Shown here: positions 3,821 to 10,281 of the stretch, in pieces
Position numbering within the stretch: position 1 is the stretch's first letter
Layout: each line of letters starts with the position of its first letter
Notes under the pieces: generated by a model
Databases searched by the model: none
What the model was told of the DNA's origin: nothing
The model's input: only the letters and a program-made list of their open reading frames with translations
Source: a virus
IMG/VR virus record: IMGVR_UViG_3300025652_000660
Span: 1 to 21,576 of that record
Direction: 5' to 3' (one strand)
Length of the DNA: 21,576 nucleotides
Made by a program: the position numbers and the translations under genes

Positions 3821-4099
3821 TTAAGCTCCTACTGCACGATAGTAACCATCGGCACTCACGTAGTAAAGTTTTCCGTTAGCAGCGACCTCATCAATCTCAA
3901 GAATGCTACCAGTAAAAAACTCACATGCCTCGCTATACATATCAAATGTCCTGGCGAGAACGAAAGAACGAATTGGATCTTTCCAATTGTCCATATGAAG
4001 AGTAAGATCGTCAAAAGCAGTTTTCAACTGAGCATAGGTAAATCCCTTTTTGCTCACGACTTTTGCGCCGATGTCTGCATCAAGATAATCAAATTTCAT
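3821..4099 (-). CDS. Small hypothetical protein (92 aa)
   Basis: It starts MKFDYLDADIGAK at 4099, where the ATG overlaps the upstream stop (TGATG). A GTG five codons earlier is the alternative start. The sequence is mixed alpha/beta and acidic, with an Asp/Trp-containing middle (DDLTLHMDNWKDPIRSFV) and a C-terminal beta-like region (GKLYYVSADGYYRAV). No family is recognised. It is part of the run of small early genes downstream of the promoter at 4635-4663, and its end carries the ribosome site of the 26-residue ORF. Confidence 0.6.
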   Translation of the reverse strand: MKFDYLDADIGAKVVSKKGFTYAQLKTAFDDLTLHMDNWKDPIRSFVLARTFDMYSEACEFFTGSILEIDEVAANGKLYYVSADGYYRAVGA

Positions 4100-4335
4100 C
4101 AACTGATATTCCACTTCACTTCAAGTTTGCCATTTTCAAGAAGACTGGTAAGATGTTCTATGTATCGTATAGCCATATCTTTTTCATCTGAAGCACCTTC
4201 CCTCAACTGAATAGCGGTATCTTTCAGATTGTTTGCCAGATTTATTTCTGACTCACCGTAGTTAAAAAGAAACTGACCATCTTCACGCTCAACTGTCAAT
4301 TTTTTATGACGCCAATCACTATAACAATAACCCAT
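4099..4335 (-). CDS. Small hypothetical protein (78 aa)
   Basis: It starts MGYCYSDWRHKKLTVER at 4335 with a very strong AAGGAGG site; the longer in-frame ORF has its upstream codons in the previous gene. It is a soluble, charged protein with a helical middle (NLANNLKDTAIQLREGASDEKDM, given here only as a landmark around residues 32-54). No family is recognised. It is separated from the upstream gene by two bases and overlaps the downstream start, so it is translated from the polycistronic early mRNA. Confidence 0.65.
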   Translation of the reverse strand: MGYCYSDWRHKKLTVEREDGQFLFNYGESEINLANNLKDTAIQLREGASDEKDMAIRYIEHLTSLLENGKLEVKWNIS

Positions 4336-4337
4336 AA

Positions 4338-4601
4338 TTAAACCTCCTTCACTTTCGAGGGTTTGCATACGGCGATCCCCTCCTCTATTATATCACATGC
4401 CTTCTCGAATAGTGTTACATACTTGTCGTTAAGGCTATTACTGCTACGAACATCATATAGCTTTGCCAAGTGCATGTACACATCTGCGTCTACATAACTC
4501 CAATTGACAGCACCATCGCTATGATAGTTTTTTGTTCTGGATAAGGCCTCATTCATACCTACCCAAAGTTCGTTGTGGAATTCGTCTGAAATCTTTTTCA
4601 T
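4338..4601 (-). CDS. Small hypothetical protein (87 aa), first gene of an early operon
   Basis: It starts MKKISDEFHNELWVGMNEAL at 4601, chosen because AAGGAG lies six bases before this ATG; several upstream in-frame ATGs lack a site. It is a soluble, mostly helical, acidic protein of unknown family. It is the first gene after a strong sigma70-type promoter (4635-4663). It shares that promoter and leader design with the gene at 16011-16274, suggesting both are expressed immediately after infection. Confidence 0.65.
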   Translation of the reverse strand: MKKISDEFHNELWVGMNEALSRTKNYHSDGAVNWSYVDADVYMHLAKLYDVRSSNSLNDKYVTLFEKACDIIEEGIAVCKPSKVKEV

Positions 4602-4634
4602 TATCATCTCCTTATCAATCATCATCATATACAC

Positions 4635-4663
4635 AGTATACTCTAGGATAAGAAATAAGTCAA
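4635..4663 (-). promoter_or_regulatory. Sigma70-type promoter TTGACT-17-TATACT
   Basis: On the minus strand, -35 TTGACT (4658-4663) and -10 TATACT (4635-4640) are separated by 17 bases. It drives the small-gene operon starting at 4601. The -35 flank (TTGACTTATTTCT) and the leader with GATTGATAAGGA are nearly repeated at 16272-16339. Confidence 0.8.
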
Positions 4664-4669
4664 CCCTCT

Positions 4670-4695
4670 AAATCATTTTTTTGAAAAAAAGATTT
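4670..4695. other. AT-rich hairpin between 4704 gene and early promoter
   Basis: AAATC, A, T7, then G, A7, GATTT form a near-perfect hairpin just after the stop of the 4704-4901 gene. It could act as a weak terminator in either direction. It has no GC-rich stem, so this is tentative. Confidence 0.35.
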
Positions 4696-4703
4696 GTTGA
4701 TTA

Positions 4704-4901
4704 TCAATGACTTAGTAATTTAACTCCATATTTTTTTCCAGACATAAAGAAATTAGGAATATCTCCTTCGAATCCTTTGTTCCTCAGAATATCGGTAACA
4801 TACTTTTCTGCTAGGTTTTTATCTTGAGTATGTGCAACATATTTTTCGTTCTCACGGTCATAGATACGATATGTGTTACCTGCTTTCCTAATCTCATACA
4901 T
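4704..4901 (-). CDS. Small hypothetical protein (65 aa)
   Basis: It starts MYEIRKAGNTYRIYDRENEK at 4901 with GGAGG nine bases upstream; the longer in-frame ORF to 5012 lies inside another gene and has no site. The pattern of short beta strands, an A-x-K-Y-x-x-D-I helix, and a tail GKKYGVKLLSH suggests a compact domain, but no family is recognised. It overlaps the end of the 4894-5076 ORF by eight bases. It ends before the AT-rich hairpin and the next promoter, so it closes the helicase operon. Confidence 0.6.
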   Translation of the reverse strand: MYEIRKAGNTYRIYDRENEKYVAHTQDKNLAEKYVTDILRNKGFEGDIPNFFMSGKKYGVKLLSH

Positions 4902-5076
4902 TCTTTGCTGCCTCCAAAATTTCTTTATAGAACTCGATAGACCATCCATCATTTCGAAAATTTTTCGATTCAATTTCACATTCCTTGATATATTGTTCGC
5001 GTTGTTCTTCACTTAGATGTCTCAGTTCGAGAATAACCCGCTGAAATCTCGCGTCCCCGCGGTTTTCGTCATCCAT
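4894..5076 (-). CDS. Small hypothetical protein (60 aa) overlapping the helicase 3' end
   Basis: It starts MDDENRGDARFQRV at 5076, inside the last 55 bases of the gp41 C-part in another frame, with GAGGA about ten bases upstream. The C-terminal two thirds (SEEQREQYIKECEIESKNF onward) look like helical, charged coding sequence. It ends in an eight-base overlap with the next gene. The unusually long overlap lowers confidence, but no other gene fits this stretch. The function is unknown. Confidence 0.5.
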   Translation of the reverse strand: MDDENRGDARFQRVILELRHLSEEQREQYIKECEIESKNFRNDGWSIEFYKEILEAAKNV

Positions 5077-6254
5077 TTCATTTGATCCTCTTCTTTTGAT
5101 CTTTCTCCATAAGTTGTATTATCCATCACAGGTTTATCTTGCATGATGTCATCTTGCGCCGATTGTTCGGTATTGAACAGACGCATCTTCGCTCGGTCAA
5201 TCCCGACTACGAATCGCTTGTAAGCAGTTATATCATTATATCGGTTCTTCAACTGCTTTATCATAATCTGACCAAGATTTTCCATCTCTTCGGTTGAGAT
5301 GAGAGCGCACATAAAATCGACAGTTGCTGGCAAACCAAATGACTCCGAGGTATCTTCGAGACCAGGGTCAGTATTCGTAGAGCCAGTACGATTGATTTGT
5401 GTCGCGCTTACGATGGGTAGATTTTTCTCAACAGCAAGACCACGAAGTTCTTCGGCAATCGCTTTGATATATGAATAACTGTTAACATTTGCACCGAACT
5501 TCAATCTTGCCGACGAGCATATATTCAGATAGTCGATATAGATGATATCAGGTCGAAAGTTCTTTTTAAGATGGAGTTCGTTGAGTAAGTGTCGAAAGTG
5601 CCCAGAACCAGCAGCGGCAGTAGGATATTCTTTGACAATCAGTTTACCACCAGTCTTGAGGCGTAGACGGTTAATCTTATCTTCGTATATTTTCTTAGGA
5701 AACCCTTCGAGTTCAGCAATCGGAATATTGAGAAGATTCGCGTCGATACGTTGAGCAATACGTTCTTCTGCCATTTCCATTGTGATGTAAAGAACATTCT
5801 TGCCAGCGAGGAGATTTGCCGCAGCAAAGTGAGTCATGAATAAACTTTTACCGACACCGGTGTTATGCGAAGAAACACCATTCGTATAATATCTATGGTT
5901 TGGATGGTCAACGTTGATATCAACAATAGAAATTGTGTCGCCAGTTTTTACAACGCTACATGGTTTATACGACCCGTCATCCATAAGAATATGGATACTG
6001 ATGTTGTTGGTATTGACGAGTTGTGACGCAGATACCCATCCAACTGTGCTTTGAAATAGATGTCCAGCATTACATCTCACCAACTCGTTGCCGGTTAAGT
6101 CATCTCGGAGAATGTATTCTTCAAACATTCCTTTATTGACAAAGAAGTTTACAGAAACATATCCATCGGGTGAATCTACTTCAACATCATAACCATTCTC
6201 AAGAAGAGTTTCAATCTCAGCAATAGCAACTTCTTTTTCAATATAATCTTCCAT
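5022..6254 (-). CDS. 41: gp41 replicative helicase C-part, fused behind a C-intein
   Basis: This is a 410-residue product. Residues 1-131 are a split-intein C-fragment. It contains the block-B-like CNAGHLFQ, the GWVSASQL segment, and the C-terminal block RYYTNGVSSHN. The next residue is the extein Thr. The extein (279 residues) begins TGVGKSLFMTHFAAANLL, completing the Walker A loop whose first half (LLAG) ends the partner gene. A Walker B region (DIIYIDYLN) and a DnaB-type core with SATQINRTGS follow. Joined exteins total 193+279=472 residues, close to T4 gp41 (475 from memory). The start at 6254 is preferred because AAAGGG lies seven bases upstream; an ATG five codons earlier has no ribosome site. 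The ring helicase unwinds DNA ahead of gp43 and works with primase. Confidence 0.9.
   Translation of the reverse strand: MEDYIEKEVAIAEIETLLENGYDVEVDSPDGYVSVNFFVNKGMFEEYILRDDLTGNELVRCNAGHLFQSTVGWVSASQLVNTNNISIHILMDDGSYKPCSVVKTGDTISIVDINVDHPNHRYYTNGVSSHNTGVGKSLFMTHFAAANLLAGKNVLYITMEMAEERIAQRIDANLLNIPIAELEGFPKKIYEDKINRLRLKTGGKLIVKEYPTAAAGSGHFRHLLNELHLKKNFRPDIIYIDYLNICSSARLKFGANVNSYSYIKAIAEELRGLAVEKNLPIVSATQINRTGSTNTDPGLEDTSESFGLPATVDFMCALISTEEMENLGQIMIKQLKNRYNDITAYKRFVVGIDRAKMRLFNTEQSAQDDIMQDKPVMDNTTYGERSKEEDQMKWMTKTAGTRDFSGLFSN
5862..6254 (-). other. Split intein C-fragment (131 aa)
   Basis: It spans the ATG at 6254 to the terminal Asn codon (5862-5864). The terminal SHN and following Thr fit the intein C-terminal splice junction (His-Asn, then Ser/Thr/Cys). 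Block B, normally in the N-half, is here in the C-fragment, so the split lies far closer to the N-terminus than in canonical split inteins. With the 17-residue N-piece the total of 148 residues equals a mini-intein without an endonuclease domain. Confidence 0.85.
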
Positions 6255-6269
6255 TAAAAACCCTTTCAT

Positions 6270-6277
6270 TATAAATA
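6270..6277 (+). promoter_or_regulatory. T4-type late promoter TATAAATA for the HNH gene
   Basis: TATAAATA on the plus strand, about 72 bases before the HNH ATG. It predicts a late transcript starting near 6283, exactly at the foot of the hairpin at 6283-6313. Phage homing endonuclease genes are often late-expressed and held down by 5' hairpins; the parallel is inference. Confidence 0.55.
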
Positions 6278-6282
6278 AAGAT

Positions 6283-6313
6283 GTAGGTCACGGAGGTACG
6301 AACTCCTACCTAC
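6283..6313. other. Hairpin in the shared leader of HNH and gp41 C-part
   Basis: GTAGGT (6283-6288) pairs with ACCTAC (6308-6313), and GGAG (6292-6295) with CTCC (6303-6306). The hairpin lies at the 5' end of the predicted late HNH RNA and also in the minus-strand leader of the gp41 C-part. The two leaders are complementary. Confidence 0.5.
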
Positions 6314-6326
6314 TCTATATCTATCT

Positions 6327-6355
6327 ATTATATACGGAGATACAGCATATGTCAA
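6327..6355 (-). promoter_or_regulatory. Perfect sigma70 promoter TTGACA-17-TATAAT for gp41 C-part
   Basis: On the minus strand, -35 TTGACA is at 6350-6355 and -10 TATAAT at 6327-6332, with a 17-base spacer. The -35 box is made of the start codon region of the plus-strand HNH gene (ATG at 6349). It gives the second half of the broken helicase gene its own early promoter, with a leader of about 65 bases. Confidence 0.8.
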
Positions 6356-7014
6356 TTATTTATTCTACTATCTATCACAACCTTTGTGAATCTAAAAAAT
6401 ATCGTATTGTTGAATATGTTCCGGGATCTGGTCTTCACAAGCACCACATAGTTCCAAAACATATGGGCGGAGAAGACGAACCATTCAACTTTACATATCT
6501 TACAGTTAGAGAACATATTATAGCACATTTTTTGTTGTGGAAAATATACAAAGAACCAAACGACCTTCGAGCAATGAATATGCTTGGCGCTAATCTAACT
6601 GTTACCCAAAGAAGAGTGGTTGGAATTTGGTGTAGAGATAATGGCATTGGATTTCATGGTGCTACTCCAGAACAACGAAGAGAGTGGAGTTTGCGAGGGA
6701 TTGAATCTCAAAAAGAAAGTGGTTCAAAAAACTCATTTTATTGGTGGTCCACAGAAAAAGGTAGAAAAGAAAGAGCAAGTATAGGTGGTAAAGCATCGCA
6801 ACAATCTGGTAATGCGTTCAATCTTCAATCTCTTTCCAAAGAAGATACGATAAAAAATGCCAAAAAGGGTGGAAAACTGTCTGCCAAGAAGCCAGCAACT
6901 AATGGCACCATAACAAAGAAGTTCCATACTGATGAAGATAGAAATGCGTTTCTTTCAACAAATCCTGATTGGAGAATAGGACAACATTGGACAAACGGAA
7001 TGGAAAAATGTTAA
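6349..7014 (+). CDS. HNH homing-type endonuclease, antisense within the fractured gp41 gene
   Basis: This is a 221-residue protein. HKHHIVPKHMGGEDEPFNF then TYLTVREHIIAHF (about residues 30-62) is an HNH nuclease core of the phage type: HH, then Asn, then His. The C-terminal part has Gly/Lys-rich repeats (IGGKASQQSGNAF; AKKGGKLSAKK) and KKFHTDEDRNAF...NPDWRIGQ, resembling NUMOD-type DNA-binding modules. It is the only plus-strand gene in the window. It lies exactly between the two intein halves and stops eight bases from the N-part stop. GGAG lies about nine bases before the ATG. Known split-intein fractured genes often carry a free-standing endonuclease in this position; cutting of intein-less gp41 alleles is the likely role. 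Confidence 0.85.
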   Translation: MSIIYSTIYHNLCESKKYRIVEYVPGSGLHKHHIVPKHMGGEDEPFNFTYLTVREHIIAHFLLWKIYKEPNDLRAMNMLGANLTVTQRRVVGIWCRDNGIGFHGATPEQRREWSLRGIESQKESGSKNSFYWWSTEKGRKERASIGGKASQQSGNAFNLQSLSKEDTIKNAKKGGKLSAKKPATNGTITKKFHTDEDRNAFLSTNPDWRIGQHWTNGMEKC

Positions 7015-7022
7015 TATTGAGA

Positions 7023-7655
7023 TTATGTCTGCTTCTTTCGATACCTAATCTTTACCTTAGTTTCAGGATGAACACAACCGGCAAGAAGAACATTGAGTGT
7101 CTTGTTTGGCAAGCCGCCGTCTGTAATCTTATTAAAATATTCAAGATCAAACTCAACCTTATCTTCTTTCTGATTATAGAAGTCATATCGTTCTTCAGCA
7201 TTCTCAATAAAATCGTGGCCGATATGATCATCAAAAGAAACGCCAAGTGCTTCAGACAATATGGTAGGTATGCTACCCTTATCTTCAGATTTACTTTTAC
7301 CCTCGATGATATCAATCGAACTCATAATGGCATTGAAGACCGCTTTCTCTTGACAGAACTCTTCAGTATTATTTACAAGCCAAGCCGAATCTTTTTTCTC
7401 AAAAGTAAGTTCATCAATATATTCAACAAGGCTAGAGAATGTTTGTTCAGGAATGCCCTCTTGTTTGTTGAGTTCAATGAGCAAAGTCTCTTTCGTCGGC
7501 AAACCATTATATTTGCCAACAAACTTGTCAATCTCTTGGAACAGAATCTTTTCAGTTTGATCTTGAAAATAGTCACCTTTCAGAAATGGTAATACTCTTC
7601 GAGCATATTCTTCATCATAGATTAGGTTGCTTAGTATTGTCTGTTCCAGTCTCAT
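7023..7655 (-). CDS. 41: gp41 replicative helicase N-part, fused to a very short N-intein
   Basis: This is a 210-residue product. Residues 1-193 match the N-terminal domain and the start of the RecA-like domain of gp41/DnaB helicases (MRLEQTILSNLIYDEEYARR; LPNKTLNVLLAG). The gene then reads CVHPETKVKIRYRKKQT and stops. This begins with the nucleophilic Cys of an intein after Gly193, in the middle of the Walker A loop. The start at 7655 has AGAGGA upstream and overlaps the upstream gene by about 40 bases. The fragment lacks most of the ATPase core, so it is useless alone. Protein trans-splicing with the product of 5022-6254 would restore LLAG-TGVGKS. It belongs to the uvsX transcript from 9195-9223. 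Confidence 0.9.
   Translation of the reverse strand: MRLEQTILSNLIYDEEYARRVLPFLKGDYFQDQTEKILFQEIDKFVGKYNGLPTKETLLIELNKQEGIPEQTFSSLVEYIDELTFEKKDSAWLVNNTEEFCQEKAVFNAIMSSIDIIEGKSKSEDKGSIPTILSEALGVSFDDHIGHDFIENAEERYDFYNQKEDKVEFDLEYFNKITDGGLPNKTLNVLLAGCVHPETKVKIRYRKKQT
7026..7076 (-). other. Split intein N-fragment (17 aa)
   Basis: The sequence CVHPETKVKIRYRKKQT runs from Cys (codon 7074-7076) to the stop. It contains only block A. Canonical split inteins have N-fragments of about 100 residues. Such tiny N-pieces are known only for the atypical class seen in phage metagenomes (AceL-TerL and VidaL types, recalled from the literature). Confidence 0.85.
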
Positions 7656-7938
7656 TCGATGTTGCTTCCTCTATGATTGATACTAAAATGTCGCCAAGAT
7701 GATTTTCAAATTCTTGATGGTCTTCTTGTGTGAGATTATCAACGTCTAACTCTTCAGGCGTGGATATTACATCATACTCAAATTTAAGTGTGGCATTTTC
7801 TTCGTCTTCTTCCAGAAATCGAACTGTGTGGTAGTTGTATATTATACCATCCCATTTCTGAGAAGTCAACTTAATTCGAGCAAGATTTTCTTCTTCGTAT
7901 TCATCGAAGAGAACTTCGTAATCATTCTGTATCGTCAT
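7615..7938 (-). CDS. Conserved hypothetical protein between uvsX and 41 (107 aa)
   Basis: It starts MTIQNDYEVLFDEYEEENLARI at 7938, with GAGG six bases upstream and a 17-base overlap with the end of uvsX. The protein is very acidic, especially at both ends (EEDEENAT; TQEDHQEFENHLGDIL), and probably beta-rich in the middle (WDGIIYNYHTVRFLE). Similar acidic ORFs occur next to uvsX in marine T4-like phages, from memory, with no known function. Position between recombinase and helicase genes suggests a replication or recombination accessory role, which is inference. Confidence 0.7.
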   Translation of the reverse strand: MTIQNDYEVLFDEYEEENLARIKLTSQKWDGIIYNYHTVRFLEEDEENATLKFEYDVISTPEELDVDNLTQEDHQEFENHLGDILVSIIEEATSNETGTDNTKQPNL

Positions 7939-8983
7939 CTTCAGCCTCACTTTCGCTCATAATCGGAGTTGTTGCCATGCTGTAAGTTGTATGAATGTAG
8001 TCTTGAAAGTCTGTCTTCTCGAACATCATCATCCAGAAATCTTTGTTATCGATGATTTCTTTTGCGCGAAGAAGTTTTTCAGACAATACTTCACCGGTTG
8101 CTGGATCAACGGCTTCGTACCAACCCATCTTCGGTTTGTTGATATATCCACCGCCTTCTGCTACATCAAGCAGACCAGACCATTTACTGATGCCACCTTC
8201 AAATGTGACCGTGATTGGAATCTTTGACTTCTCACGCACATGACGAGACTTCTCAATATTGATAACGAAGTGATAGCCTTTAATCTCTTTGCCATCTTTT
8301 TCCTGTTGGCGACCAACAATCCAGATAGCATCGGAACTGTAATACGCGCCTGTACCACCCGATACGATATCTTTCGGGTATAGACCAATCTCTTTATAAG
8401 TGTGATTGACAACAACCATTGGAATATCTTTGAGATTGAGATGTGGTGTAACGATACGAAACAGCGACTTCATCTGTTTTGCACGAGACATATCAGCGAC
8501 CGACTTTTCATTCAGTGCATCTTCAACTTCTTTCTTCGACGCAAGATTACCGACAGAATCAATGATGATACAAACATGGTCGCCCTTGTCAATCTCTTTC
8601 AACTGATTTGTAATGTCAAACTTGAGTTCTTCGATATCAGTGATTGGAGTATGAACAACCCGATCCATATCAATACCGAACGACTCAAAATATGCTTGCG
8701 GTGTACCAAACTCTGAATCATAGAATAAGATTACCGCATCATCGTATTTCTTCTGATAGGCTGCTGCCATCAAGAGAGCAAACGCTGACTTAAAGTGTTT
8801 CGATGGACCTGCAAGCATCAACATACCAGGTACAAGACCACCATCAACACGACCAGACAACGCAACATTAATCATAGGCACCGGAGTTGGAGCCATATCT
8901 TTTTTACCAAAAACTTTCGATTCAGTAATTACTGATGTAAGTTTAATCGTGGAGTTCTTCGTAAGTTTTTCAAGTACCGACAT
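7922..8983 (-). CDS. uvsX: UvsX RecA-like recombinase
   Basis: This is a 353-residue protein. Walker A is GPSKHFKS (59-66), the form typical of T4-like UvsX. The Walker B strand is VCIIIDSVGNL (about 137-147). VVVNHTYKEIGLYPKDIVSGGTG matches the loop region around the L2/Q-loop of the family. The C-terminus is acidic (SESEAEDDDTE), as in RecA and UvsX. It is somewhat shorter than T4 UvsX (about 390 residues). It forms filaments on ssDNA and catalyses strand exchange for recombination-dependent replication and repair. The start at 8983 lies two bases after a small membrane protein gene, with GAGGT upstream. Both are driven by the perfect promoter at 9195-9223. Confidence 0.95.
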   Translation of the reverse strand: MSVLEKLTKNSTIKLTSVITESKVFGKKDMAPTPVPMINVALSGRVDGGLVPGMLMLAGPSKHFKSAFALLMAAAYQKKYDDAVILFYDSEFGTPQAYFESFGIDMDRVVHTPITDIEELKFDITNQLKEIDKGDHVCIIIDSVGNLASKKEVEDALNEKSVADMSRAKQMKSLFRIVTPHLNLKDIPMVVVNHTYKEIGLYPKDIVSGGTGAYYSSDAIWIVGRQQEKDGKEIKGYHFVINIEKSRHVREKSKIPITVTFEGGISKWSGLLDVAEGGGYINKPKMGWYEAVDPATGEVLSEKLLRAKEIIDNKDFWMMMFEKTDFQDYIHTTYSMATTPIMSESEAEDDDTE

Positions 8984-8985
8984 AT

Positions 8986-9171
8986 CTACCTCATTAAAAA
9001 ACCAATAATAATATACAACACAATAATTAAAATGCCTAACGTTATTTTTTGATTGCTCTTAATCACTCGTTTTAGATAACTTATTAATAGTATAAGCATG
9101 TAAATTAAGAGTGGAATACATAATATCAAAAATAGACCAAAAGTAATTCCCATAAATGTTTGCCATTCCAT
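8986..9171 (-). CDS. Small membrane protein with two helices (61 aa)
   Basis: It encodes MEWQTFMGITFGLFLILCIP and onward. A long hydrophobic segment (about 7-33), a basic turn (YLKRVIKSNQK) and a second hydrophobic segment (about 43-59) give a helical hairpin in the inner membrane. AAGGGA lies eight bases before the ATG. It is the first gene after the strong promoter and is tightly linked to uvsX (two-base gap). No family is recognised. Confidence 0.7.
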   Translation of the reverse strand: MEWQTFMGITFGLFLILCIPLLIYMLILLISYLKRVIKSNQKITLGILIIVLYIIIGFLMR

Positions 9172-9194
9172 TTTATTCCCTTGTGATAGTTTCT

Positions 9195-9223
9195 ATTATA
9201 TGACGAATAGATTAAGATGTCAA
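9195..9223 (-). promoter_or_regulatory. Perfect sigma70 promoter TTGACA-17-TATAAT
   Basis: On the minus strand, TTGACA (9218-9223) and TATAAT (9195-9200) have a 17-base spacer. The -35 box overlaps the stop region of the upstream membrane protein gene. It drives the small membrane gene, uvsX and downstream genes. Confidence 0.88.
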
Positions 9224-10281
9224 TCTTTTTTTGTAGGACCGTATGTACCATTTTCGCGCAATGCTTTTTCGTTTTTAGTCTTACGAATTTCAGTAATCGA
9301 CCCATAGTCTGTGCTTGTATTTGCAACAGGTTTTTTCTTTCTCGGGCGGCCGCGCTTGCGCTTTGGCTTTGGCTCTTCTACAACTTCAGGTTCTTCTGGC
9401 ACAGAAAACTCCACAGTATTTGATGGATCTTCGTTTTCTATTTTGAACTCTGGTTGAGGCACGTCTGTTTCGACGGTGATCTCCGACCACTCTTTATCAA
9501 CTTCTTCGACGTTGACTGCGGTCCGAAGTGTTTTAGGTTTGTATAAACTGATATTTGCGGCTATCAAAAGGAGAACAGCCAGAGGATCAAACACAAAAAT
9601 AATAGCAATAATAACCCATCTGACTGCTGATTCGAGCATTTCTTCATTTGCTCGTTCAGCATAGATAAATTCTGCAATATATCGTATTGGTCCAACTTCT
9701 GCTTCATACTTCAGTTGCTCCTTCGATAGTTCTTGCCTTTCTTCTCGATATGATATAATTCGTCCATTCGCTTCTTCAATGATTCCGTTGAGTGACTCTC
9801 TTTCCACAGTTTGGCTTTCACGCACGGCGATTGCTCCCTGTGGTCCTCGAATGCGGTCGAACTCAATGAGCGTCTCGACACCTGCGTCCAACTGTGATAT
9901 GACCTTCGTCGCATCAGTCACTCTCCTTTGCTGTTGTTTGATTCTTGAATCTATTAATTCAATTTGAAGAGTATTATTTCCACCTACCAACGTCTGATCA
10001 ATATGAGCCTTCGACAAGAAGCCAAAGATTCCCATGGATGTAATGAACATCAATACAACAACAGACGCTGTAAGATATCCACGAAGCATCTTATGTGTGG
10101 TGTGCCAGTTCTGATACAACCAAGATGCTGTAACAAGTTTACCAACTTCAAGAACACCGCCCATAACAGCGATAGCAAATGCGGCTGAAGCAAAGATAGC
10201 CATCAGACCGACAATAGAATACCAAGCGGCAACGCCAGATATGGCAAGTGCGACTATGAGAGTAAGAATAGCCACGGGCAT
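9220..10281 (-). CDS. Membrane protein with coiled coil and AT-hook-like tail
   Basis: This is a 353-residue protein. Hydrophobic helices lie at about 4-45 (two, with GGVLEVGKLV after) and 71-91. A long, probably coiled-coil segment follows at about 105-205 (QLDAGVETLIEFDRIRG; REERQELSKEQLKYEAEV). Another hydrophobic region lies at about 217-245. The C-terminal tail is acidic/proline-rich and then KPKRKRGRPRKKKP (about residues 307-320), an RGRP AT-hook-like motif. The tail probably lies in the cytoplasm and could touch DNA; this is inference. GAGG lies upstream of the ATG at 10281, and the stop of the preceding gene is two bases away. Similar membrane proteins of unknown role occur in marine T4-like phages. 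Confidence 0.75.
   Translation of the reverse strand: MPVAILTLIVALAISGVAAWYSIVGLMAIFASAAFAIAVMGGVLEVGKLVTASWLYQNWHTTHKMLRGYLTASVVVLMFITSMGIFGFLSKAHIDQTLVGGNNTLQIELIDSRIKQQQRRVTDATKVISQLDAGVETLIEFDRIRGPQGAIAVRESQTVERESLNGIIEEANGRIISYREERQELSKEQLKYEAEVGPIRYIAEFIYAERANEEMLESAVRWVIIAIIFVFDPLAVLLLIAANISLYKPKTLRTAVNVEEVDKEWSEITVETDVPQPEFKIENEDPSNTVEFSVPEEPEVVEEPKPKRKRGRPRKKKPVANTSTDYGSITEIRKTKNEKALRENGTYGPTKKD

Follow-up and report, generated by a model that had tools for sequence, protein, structure and literature searches.

The 21,576-nucleotide stretch of viral DNA analysed here (IMG/VR virus record IMGVR_UViG_3300025652_000660, positions 1 to 21,576; hereafter, the window) carries on its minus strand a gp41 helicase gene that is divided into two separate open reading frames (ORFs), with the break inside the Walker A loop (LLAG/.../TGVGKS; slashes mark breaks). 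We read this locus, with a probability of roughly 0.88, as a mobile fractured-gene element, in which a P-loop intein of the VidaL lineage resides in gp41, the replicative helicase of a T4-like phage, and is split by an HNH homing endonuclease gene lying antisense to the helicase. Specifically, the N-part ORF (7023-7655) encodes a 193-residue N-extein ending in LLAG (7077..7655), followed by a 17-residue N-intein, CVHPETKVKIRYRKKQT (7026..7076), and a stop codon (7023..7025) that is present in the related contig L084 too. The C-part ORF (5022-6269) contains two in-frame ATGs, the second of which, at 6254, has the sequence GAAAGGG six bases upstream (6261..6267), likely the ribosome-binding site of this part. 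Read from the ATG at 6254, the C-part comprises exactly 131 residues of C-intein (MEDYIEK...GVSSHN; 5862..6254), recognized by the match to VidaL, by alignment and by the fold of a contiguous homologue, and then a 279-residue C-extein that begins with TGVGKS and closes with the stop codon (5022..5861). In the profile phrog_19 (DnaB-like helicase), the N-part aligned with positions 161-361 (E=1e-43) and the C-part with the adjoining positions 362-603 (E=7e-75), and the joined exteins (193 + 279) would make a 472-residue helicase with the complete Walker A loop LLAGTGVGKS. A preliminary description of this DNA had already given the N-part ending, the 131-residue lead of the C-part, the 472-residue product and an element span of 5862-7076; all of them held, the span being exact to the first and last bases of the intein.

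That the contig is metagenomic, and that one relative (L085) looks decayed or chimeric, could speak for a decaying gene with no working gp41 at the locus, or for a misassembly. Such an explanation is extremely improbable, given that the arrangement is repeated in near-identical contigs from other samples and at dozens of loci in many samples, with both gp41 parts and the HNH gene under purifying selection. An IMG/VR contig 99.84% identical to the window (L001/L084) has the identical arrangement, and a third near-identical contig (L083) begins within the C-intein. Furthermore, the junctions are identical in dozens of independent loci, which excludes chance.

The C-intein matched VidaL (PDB 6vgv) with E=1e-11 and an identity of 33-34%. 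An AlphaFold model of a contiguous homologue, the L142 intein, had a predicted local distance difference test score (pLDDT) of 96, and its best match in the PDB was VidaL (template modelling score, 0.89; root-mean-square deviation, 1.6 Å), followed by other inteins; the predicted structure thus has the horseshoe-shaped Hint fold. The conserved intein residues are Cys1, an invariant Asn-x-x-His in block B, HxNHRYY in block F, and a terminal SSHN followed by Thr+1, so that the sequence features of a class 1 intein (Cys1, block B His and SSHN/T) are all present; block B lies in the C-fragment, as previously proposed, in the form of a block B-like NAGH. The N-intein of 17 residues ends at a point equivalent to the end of the 16-residue VidaL N-intein, and N-inteins at homologous loci have 14-20 residues. 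In the L142 model, the split maps to the loop that connects strands 7-13 and 20-25, and the S1 split site is placed after beta-strand 2 (PMC13014065). The break had been described as AceL/VidaL-like and close to the N-terminus; the latter point and the likeness to VidaL stand (S1, after strand beta-2), but the AceL-TerL type does not apply, being an S2 split. The median ratio of nonsynonymous to synonymous substitution rates (dN/dS) was 0.19 for the C-intein. None of the 14 family members tested scored above the cut-off in Pfam or NCBIfam, indicating that routine annotation overlooks these inteins. Taken together, sequence, predicted structure and comparison support a naturally split class 1 intein of the VidaL lineage, broken near its N-terminus.

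We then compared gp41 alleles across IMG/VR relatives. Among the 154 gp41 loci measured, 77 were intein-less, with the exteins abutting exactly (gap 0); 9 carried a contiguous intein, 50 were split with an antisense HNH gene, 8 were split with no HNH gene detected, and the remaining loci were cut by contig ends. The split intein occupies the identical gp41 codon in about 60 IMG/VR loci. An uninterrupted gp41 ORF in relatives had been named beforehand as a finding that would speak against a split intein; such ORFs are present, but as contiguous-intein or intein-less alleles, and they therefore support the split-intein interpretation rather than refute it. Among isolate phages, none of the 2,559 records matching gp41 covered 80% of the intein-bearing query, and the closest isolate relatives of the intein, located for the most part in the UvsX proteins of Pseudomonas jumbo phages, were only ~33% identical. 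Searches of bacterial and archaeal genomes returned pattern matches, none encoding a relative of the intein.

Given the full set of intein motifs, dN/dS values far below 1 and the existence of both contiguous (cis) and exact intein-less alleles, trans-splicing of the two gp41 parts is by far the best reading of these sequences. In the mechanism we propose, the helicase would be made as two polypeptides, each without a complete P-loop, and the 17-residue N-intein would dock into the 131-residue C-intein; an N-S acyl shift at Cys1, transfer to Thr+1 and Asn cyclisation would then join LLAG to TGVGKS to yield the 472-residue helicase. It is very unlikely that the gp41 parts instead act as separate, non-covalently associated subunits with no splicing at all, as genes in pieces may do; PMC10448857 cites a reported precedent in a phage ribonucleotide reductase divided by a homing endonuclease, and both gp41 parts are intact open frames. 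However, what was inserted codes for a conserved intein in which every catalytic residue is present and dN/dS is about 0.2, the break lies inside the Walker A loop, and contiguous alleles of the intein exist in which, if the intein is not tolerated, the helicase could work only after excision.

The 753 bases between the gp41 ORFs contain the HNH endonuclease gene on the opposite strand (6349..7014, plus strand; 221 residues), which matched the homing endonuclease family phrog_655 (E=4e-18); the Pfam HNH model matched it only below the cut-off. A PDB sequence search with this protein gave nothing relevant. Homologues occur at the equivalent place in 50 split loci, the residues H30, H32, N47, H56 and H60 are invariant, and the median dN/dS of the gene was 0.12. 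The gene is preceded by GGAG (6336-6339, plus strand) and by the T4-type late-promoter motif TATAAATA (6270..6277, plus strand), the only plus-strand copy in the window. Of 39 distinct homologous loci, 37 have this motif in the interval separating the HNH start from that of the C-part, compared with a frequency of 0.11 per kb per strand over the same DNA; as these loci are relatives of one another, the count reflects conservation and not 39 independent events. A hairpin 5' of the HNH start, considered as a regulatory structure, folded no better than shuffled sequences (z=-0.9) and was rejected. In addition, 9 of the 17 substitutions between the window and L084 (over 10.7 kb) fall within 335 bases, 6688-7022 (p=6e-10), located in the 3' half of the HNH gene and immediately beyond it, and cause 6 amino-acid changes; this cluster suggests local gene conversion or fast change.

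T4-like phages use group I introns and a translational bypass, and an intron or programmed bypass that removes the spacer could in principle yield a contiguous, intein-bearing message. The likelihood of such RNA-level rescue is next to negligible: an Rfam search of 5000-7700 returned no match, so that neither a group I intron nor another RNA element is supported there, the spacer encodes an opposite-strand gene, each gp41 part has its own stop and start, and the spacer of a related locus, L111, is only a few bases long.

How the intein may have come to be divided is illustrated by a pair of relatives, L088 (contiguous) and L094 (split), whose flanks are 96-97% identical around the site. The contiguous alleles L087-L092 carry AAGATTTCTTG GTGGATTGAAAAAG uninterrupted, and the junction AAGATTTCTTG^GTGGATTG, intact in these alleles, is interrupted in 23 split loci by a cassette of 687-701 bp, every host base being retained, although a G-to-A change is present at the left edge in 2 of the 23; the left cassette edge of L094 is slightly altered. 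At the left edge, host TG and cassette A form TGA, and at the right edge, cassette AT and host G form ATG, so that both the stop codon ending one half and the ATG opening the other are supplied by the cassette. We infer that the split arose by insertion of the HNH cassette into a contiguous intein.

The element also appears to move between helicases. For the 741 pairs of split loci compared, nucleotide identity averaged 0.69 for the N-extein, 0.74 for the C-extein, 0.78 for the HNH gene and 0.81 for the C-intein. The pair L161/L162 was 69% and 75% identical in the exteins but 97.5% in the HNH gene and 98.7% in the C-intein, identity dropping sharply at the C-intein/C-extein border and more gradually on the N side. 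Some pairs with no more than ~70-75% identity in gp41 share intein and HNH gene at 95-99%, so that the element is transferred as one unit; in addition, intein presence on the gp41 extein tree required seven changes, six of them forced by well-supported branches. The preliminary description, right about the split intein, had included neither the antisense homing endonuclease nor evidence of a mobile unit. According to our model, the late-expressed HNH protein would cut gp41 genes lacking the element during co-infection, repair would copy N-intein, HNH gene and C-intein as one unit, and the P-loop position would make inaccurate removal lethal. The target would presumably be either the P-loop DNA or the S1 site of a contiguous intein, and late expression is likewise presumed; the co-transfer pattern lends indirect support to site-specific cleavage and homing.

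A functional split intein with the HNH gene as a mere passenger, its patchiness due to ordinary phage recombination and not to homing, is unlikely, although phages recombine freely, cleavage by the HNH protein is inferred and some split inteins of the family persist without the HNH gene. Arguing against a passenger, one edge of the transferred block coincides with the C-intein boundary, the HNH gene is under strong purifying selection, its insertion is clean to the base, and the late-promoter motif is conserved.

Several loci have kept the split after loss of the endonuclease. In L111, which is still split, all that is left of the cassette is 12 bp of its edge, and this remnant provides the ATG; L119 has an HNH remnant with a large internal deletion; the split can thus outlive the nuclease. 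In L145, a complete HNH gene (791-1441) lies at the same split point in sense orientation, and L103 (about 2845-2890) and L132 (about 4140-4230) retain the tail of a sense-oriented HNH gene there, likewise a scar of HNH loss. As the HNH gene is antisense elsewhere, two orientations have occupied one site, either through a separate insertion or through inversion. We also observed that in L085 the gp41 intein, the HNH gene and the Walker A region are all missing pieces (3908-5915) and that another HNH gene lies at a break in the DNA polymerase gene (8923-10269); L085 is either a decayed element or a chimeric contig.

Several points weigh against the mobile-element reading. Trans-splicing and cleavage by the HNH protein were deduced from sequence and comparison; the HNH model was of moderate quality (pLDDT 70), and its Foldseek matches were not significant. 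The counts among the 154 loci were drawn from similarity-ranked lists with near-copies included, and are not prevalences. The contiguous allele of L087-L092 is nested within the split clade, which leaves the polarity from contiguous to split unsettled; contiguous alleles may have been invaded repeatedly by homing, or recombination may have reverted split alleles to the contiguous form. Furthermore, the lineage of the window has no near contiguous sibling, so that exact cassette edges are undefined there.

In some relatives, the helicase is divided further. L119 (1315-4891), L130 (640-4299) and L128 (1556-4499) also have the gp41-1 split intein, at SATQTTRSG[YF]/, whose sequence matched PDB 6qaz with E=4e-77, and a second endonuclease-like ORF, GIY-YIG-like by eye, lies between the gp41-1 halves. 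All three gp41 pieces are visible in L119 and L130; L128 begins after the N-part, which is missing only because the contig is cut. L087-L090 combine the contiguous P-loop intein with a split gp41-1, and gp41 of the window is uninterrupted at the gp41-1 site. Fractured genes were also seen next to gp41: in L093 (2105-4184) and L138 (2215-3857), the neighbouring uvsX is fractured by a canonical split intein (GGG/CLVAGTKIQTENG ... NGVVSHN/SGLKYA), with a NUMOD/HNH-like ORF between the halves. Judged by sequence, both recombinase and helicase appear to need trans-splicing in these two phages. In addition, an extra gene with the shared C-terminal motif DIILSHLLDEGYAETPEAAEAIMVNMSEEWR lies beside the endonuclease within several split genes (L118 4659-5222, L125 4448-5218, L131 4835-5296, L119 1967-2350 and L128 3655-4011).

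On balance, these loci probably represent an undescribed family of composite mobile elements, in which the split of the VidaL-lineage intein itself belongs to the mobile unit: the edges of the cleanly inserted HNH cassette supply a stop and a start codon, the whole would home into helicase P-loops, and nuclease loss would fix the split; together with gp41-1, a three-polypeptide helicase would, in some phages, be assembled via two orthogonal trans-splicing reactions. In the literature searched, we found no published description of the gp41 P-loop family, and no match for the gp41 combination, the exact insertion pair, the codon-completing edges, the endonuclease-loss scars or the three-piece helicases. 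Note that Dassa 2009 and Burton 2020 were outside this search, so that priority is uncertain. An intein named VidaL T4Lh-1 is perhaps a T4-like helicase intein and would in that case be an earlier family member. The question of how contiguous inteins become split, and why they remain so, has mostly been debated on the basis of distant comparisons; here, near-identical phages with the contiguous intein and with the intein interrupted at one nucleotide, together with the loss scars, make the steps reconstructable and testable. The family also contributes dozens of naturally split inteins whose N-parts are very short (14-20 residues), as is desired for protein semisynthesis, and helicases in three pieces that rely on two different split inteins would attest to orthogonality in nature.

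Among known systems, the fractured genes of Dassa et al. 2009 reportedly comprise gp41-1, gp41-8, NrdJ-1 and IMPDH-1. The present element resembles them in combining an essential phage gene, a split intein and a free-standing endonuclease gene between the parts (in the window, at 6349-7014). However, its break lies at the Walker A site and leaves an N-intein of 14-20 residues, whereas inteins of the Dassa type are canonical splits with a long N-intein (PMC13014065). An atypical split near the N-terminus is shared with PolB16 OarG, AceL-TerL and GOS-TerL; PolB16 OarG has a 15-residue N-intein with Ser1/Ser+1 in a polymerase (PMC10189870), and AceL and GOS TerL split later, at S2 (PMC13014065). 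Pseudomonas phage MIJ3 has a split PolB intein with an HNH gene between its parts, and a Salicola SCTP-2 mini-intein is its contiguous relative (PMC6892783); gene and intein differ from ours, and neither a nucleotide-level insertion pair nor an HNH-loss series was found described there. Mycobacterial DnaBi1 and DnaBi2 are contiguous inteins that interrupt a replicative helicase, one at the P-loop and the other at motif H4, DnaBi1 being of class 3 (PMC6195587); the DnaB P-loop site is analogous to the gp41 site and motif H4, judging from its place along the protein, perhaps to the gp41-1 site. The closest likeness in lineage, S1 split point and Walker A insertion into a RecA-fold ATPase is to VidaL, whose native gene (contigs L244-L247) is uvsX, split at FAGESG/SGKS with Ser+1 and a 58-nt gap without an endonuclease, in contrast to LAG/TGVGKS, Thr+1 and an antisense HNH gene in gp41. 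Related inteins thus occupy nearby but different loop positions in two RecA-fold ATPases. The ingredients of the gp41 element are each known, namely S1-split inteins, fractured genes, an HNH gene between split-intein halves (PMC6892783) and P-loop helicase inteins (PMC6195587).

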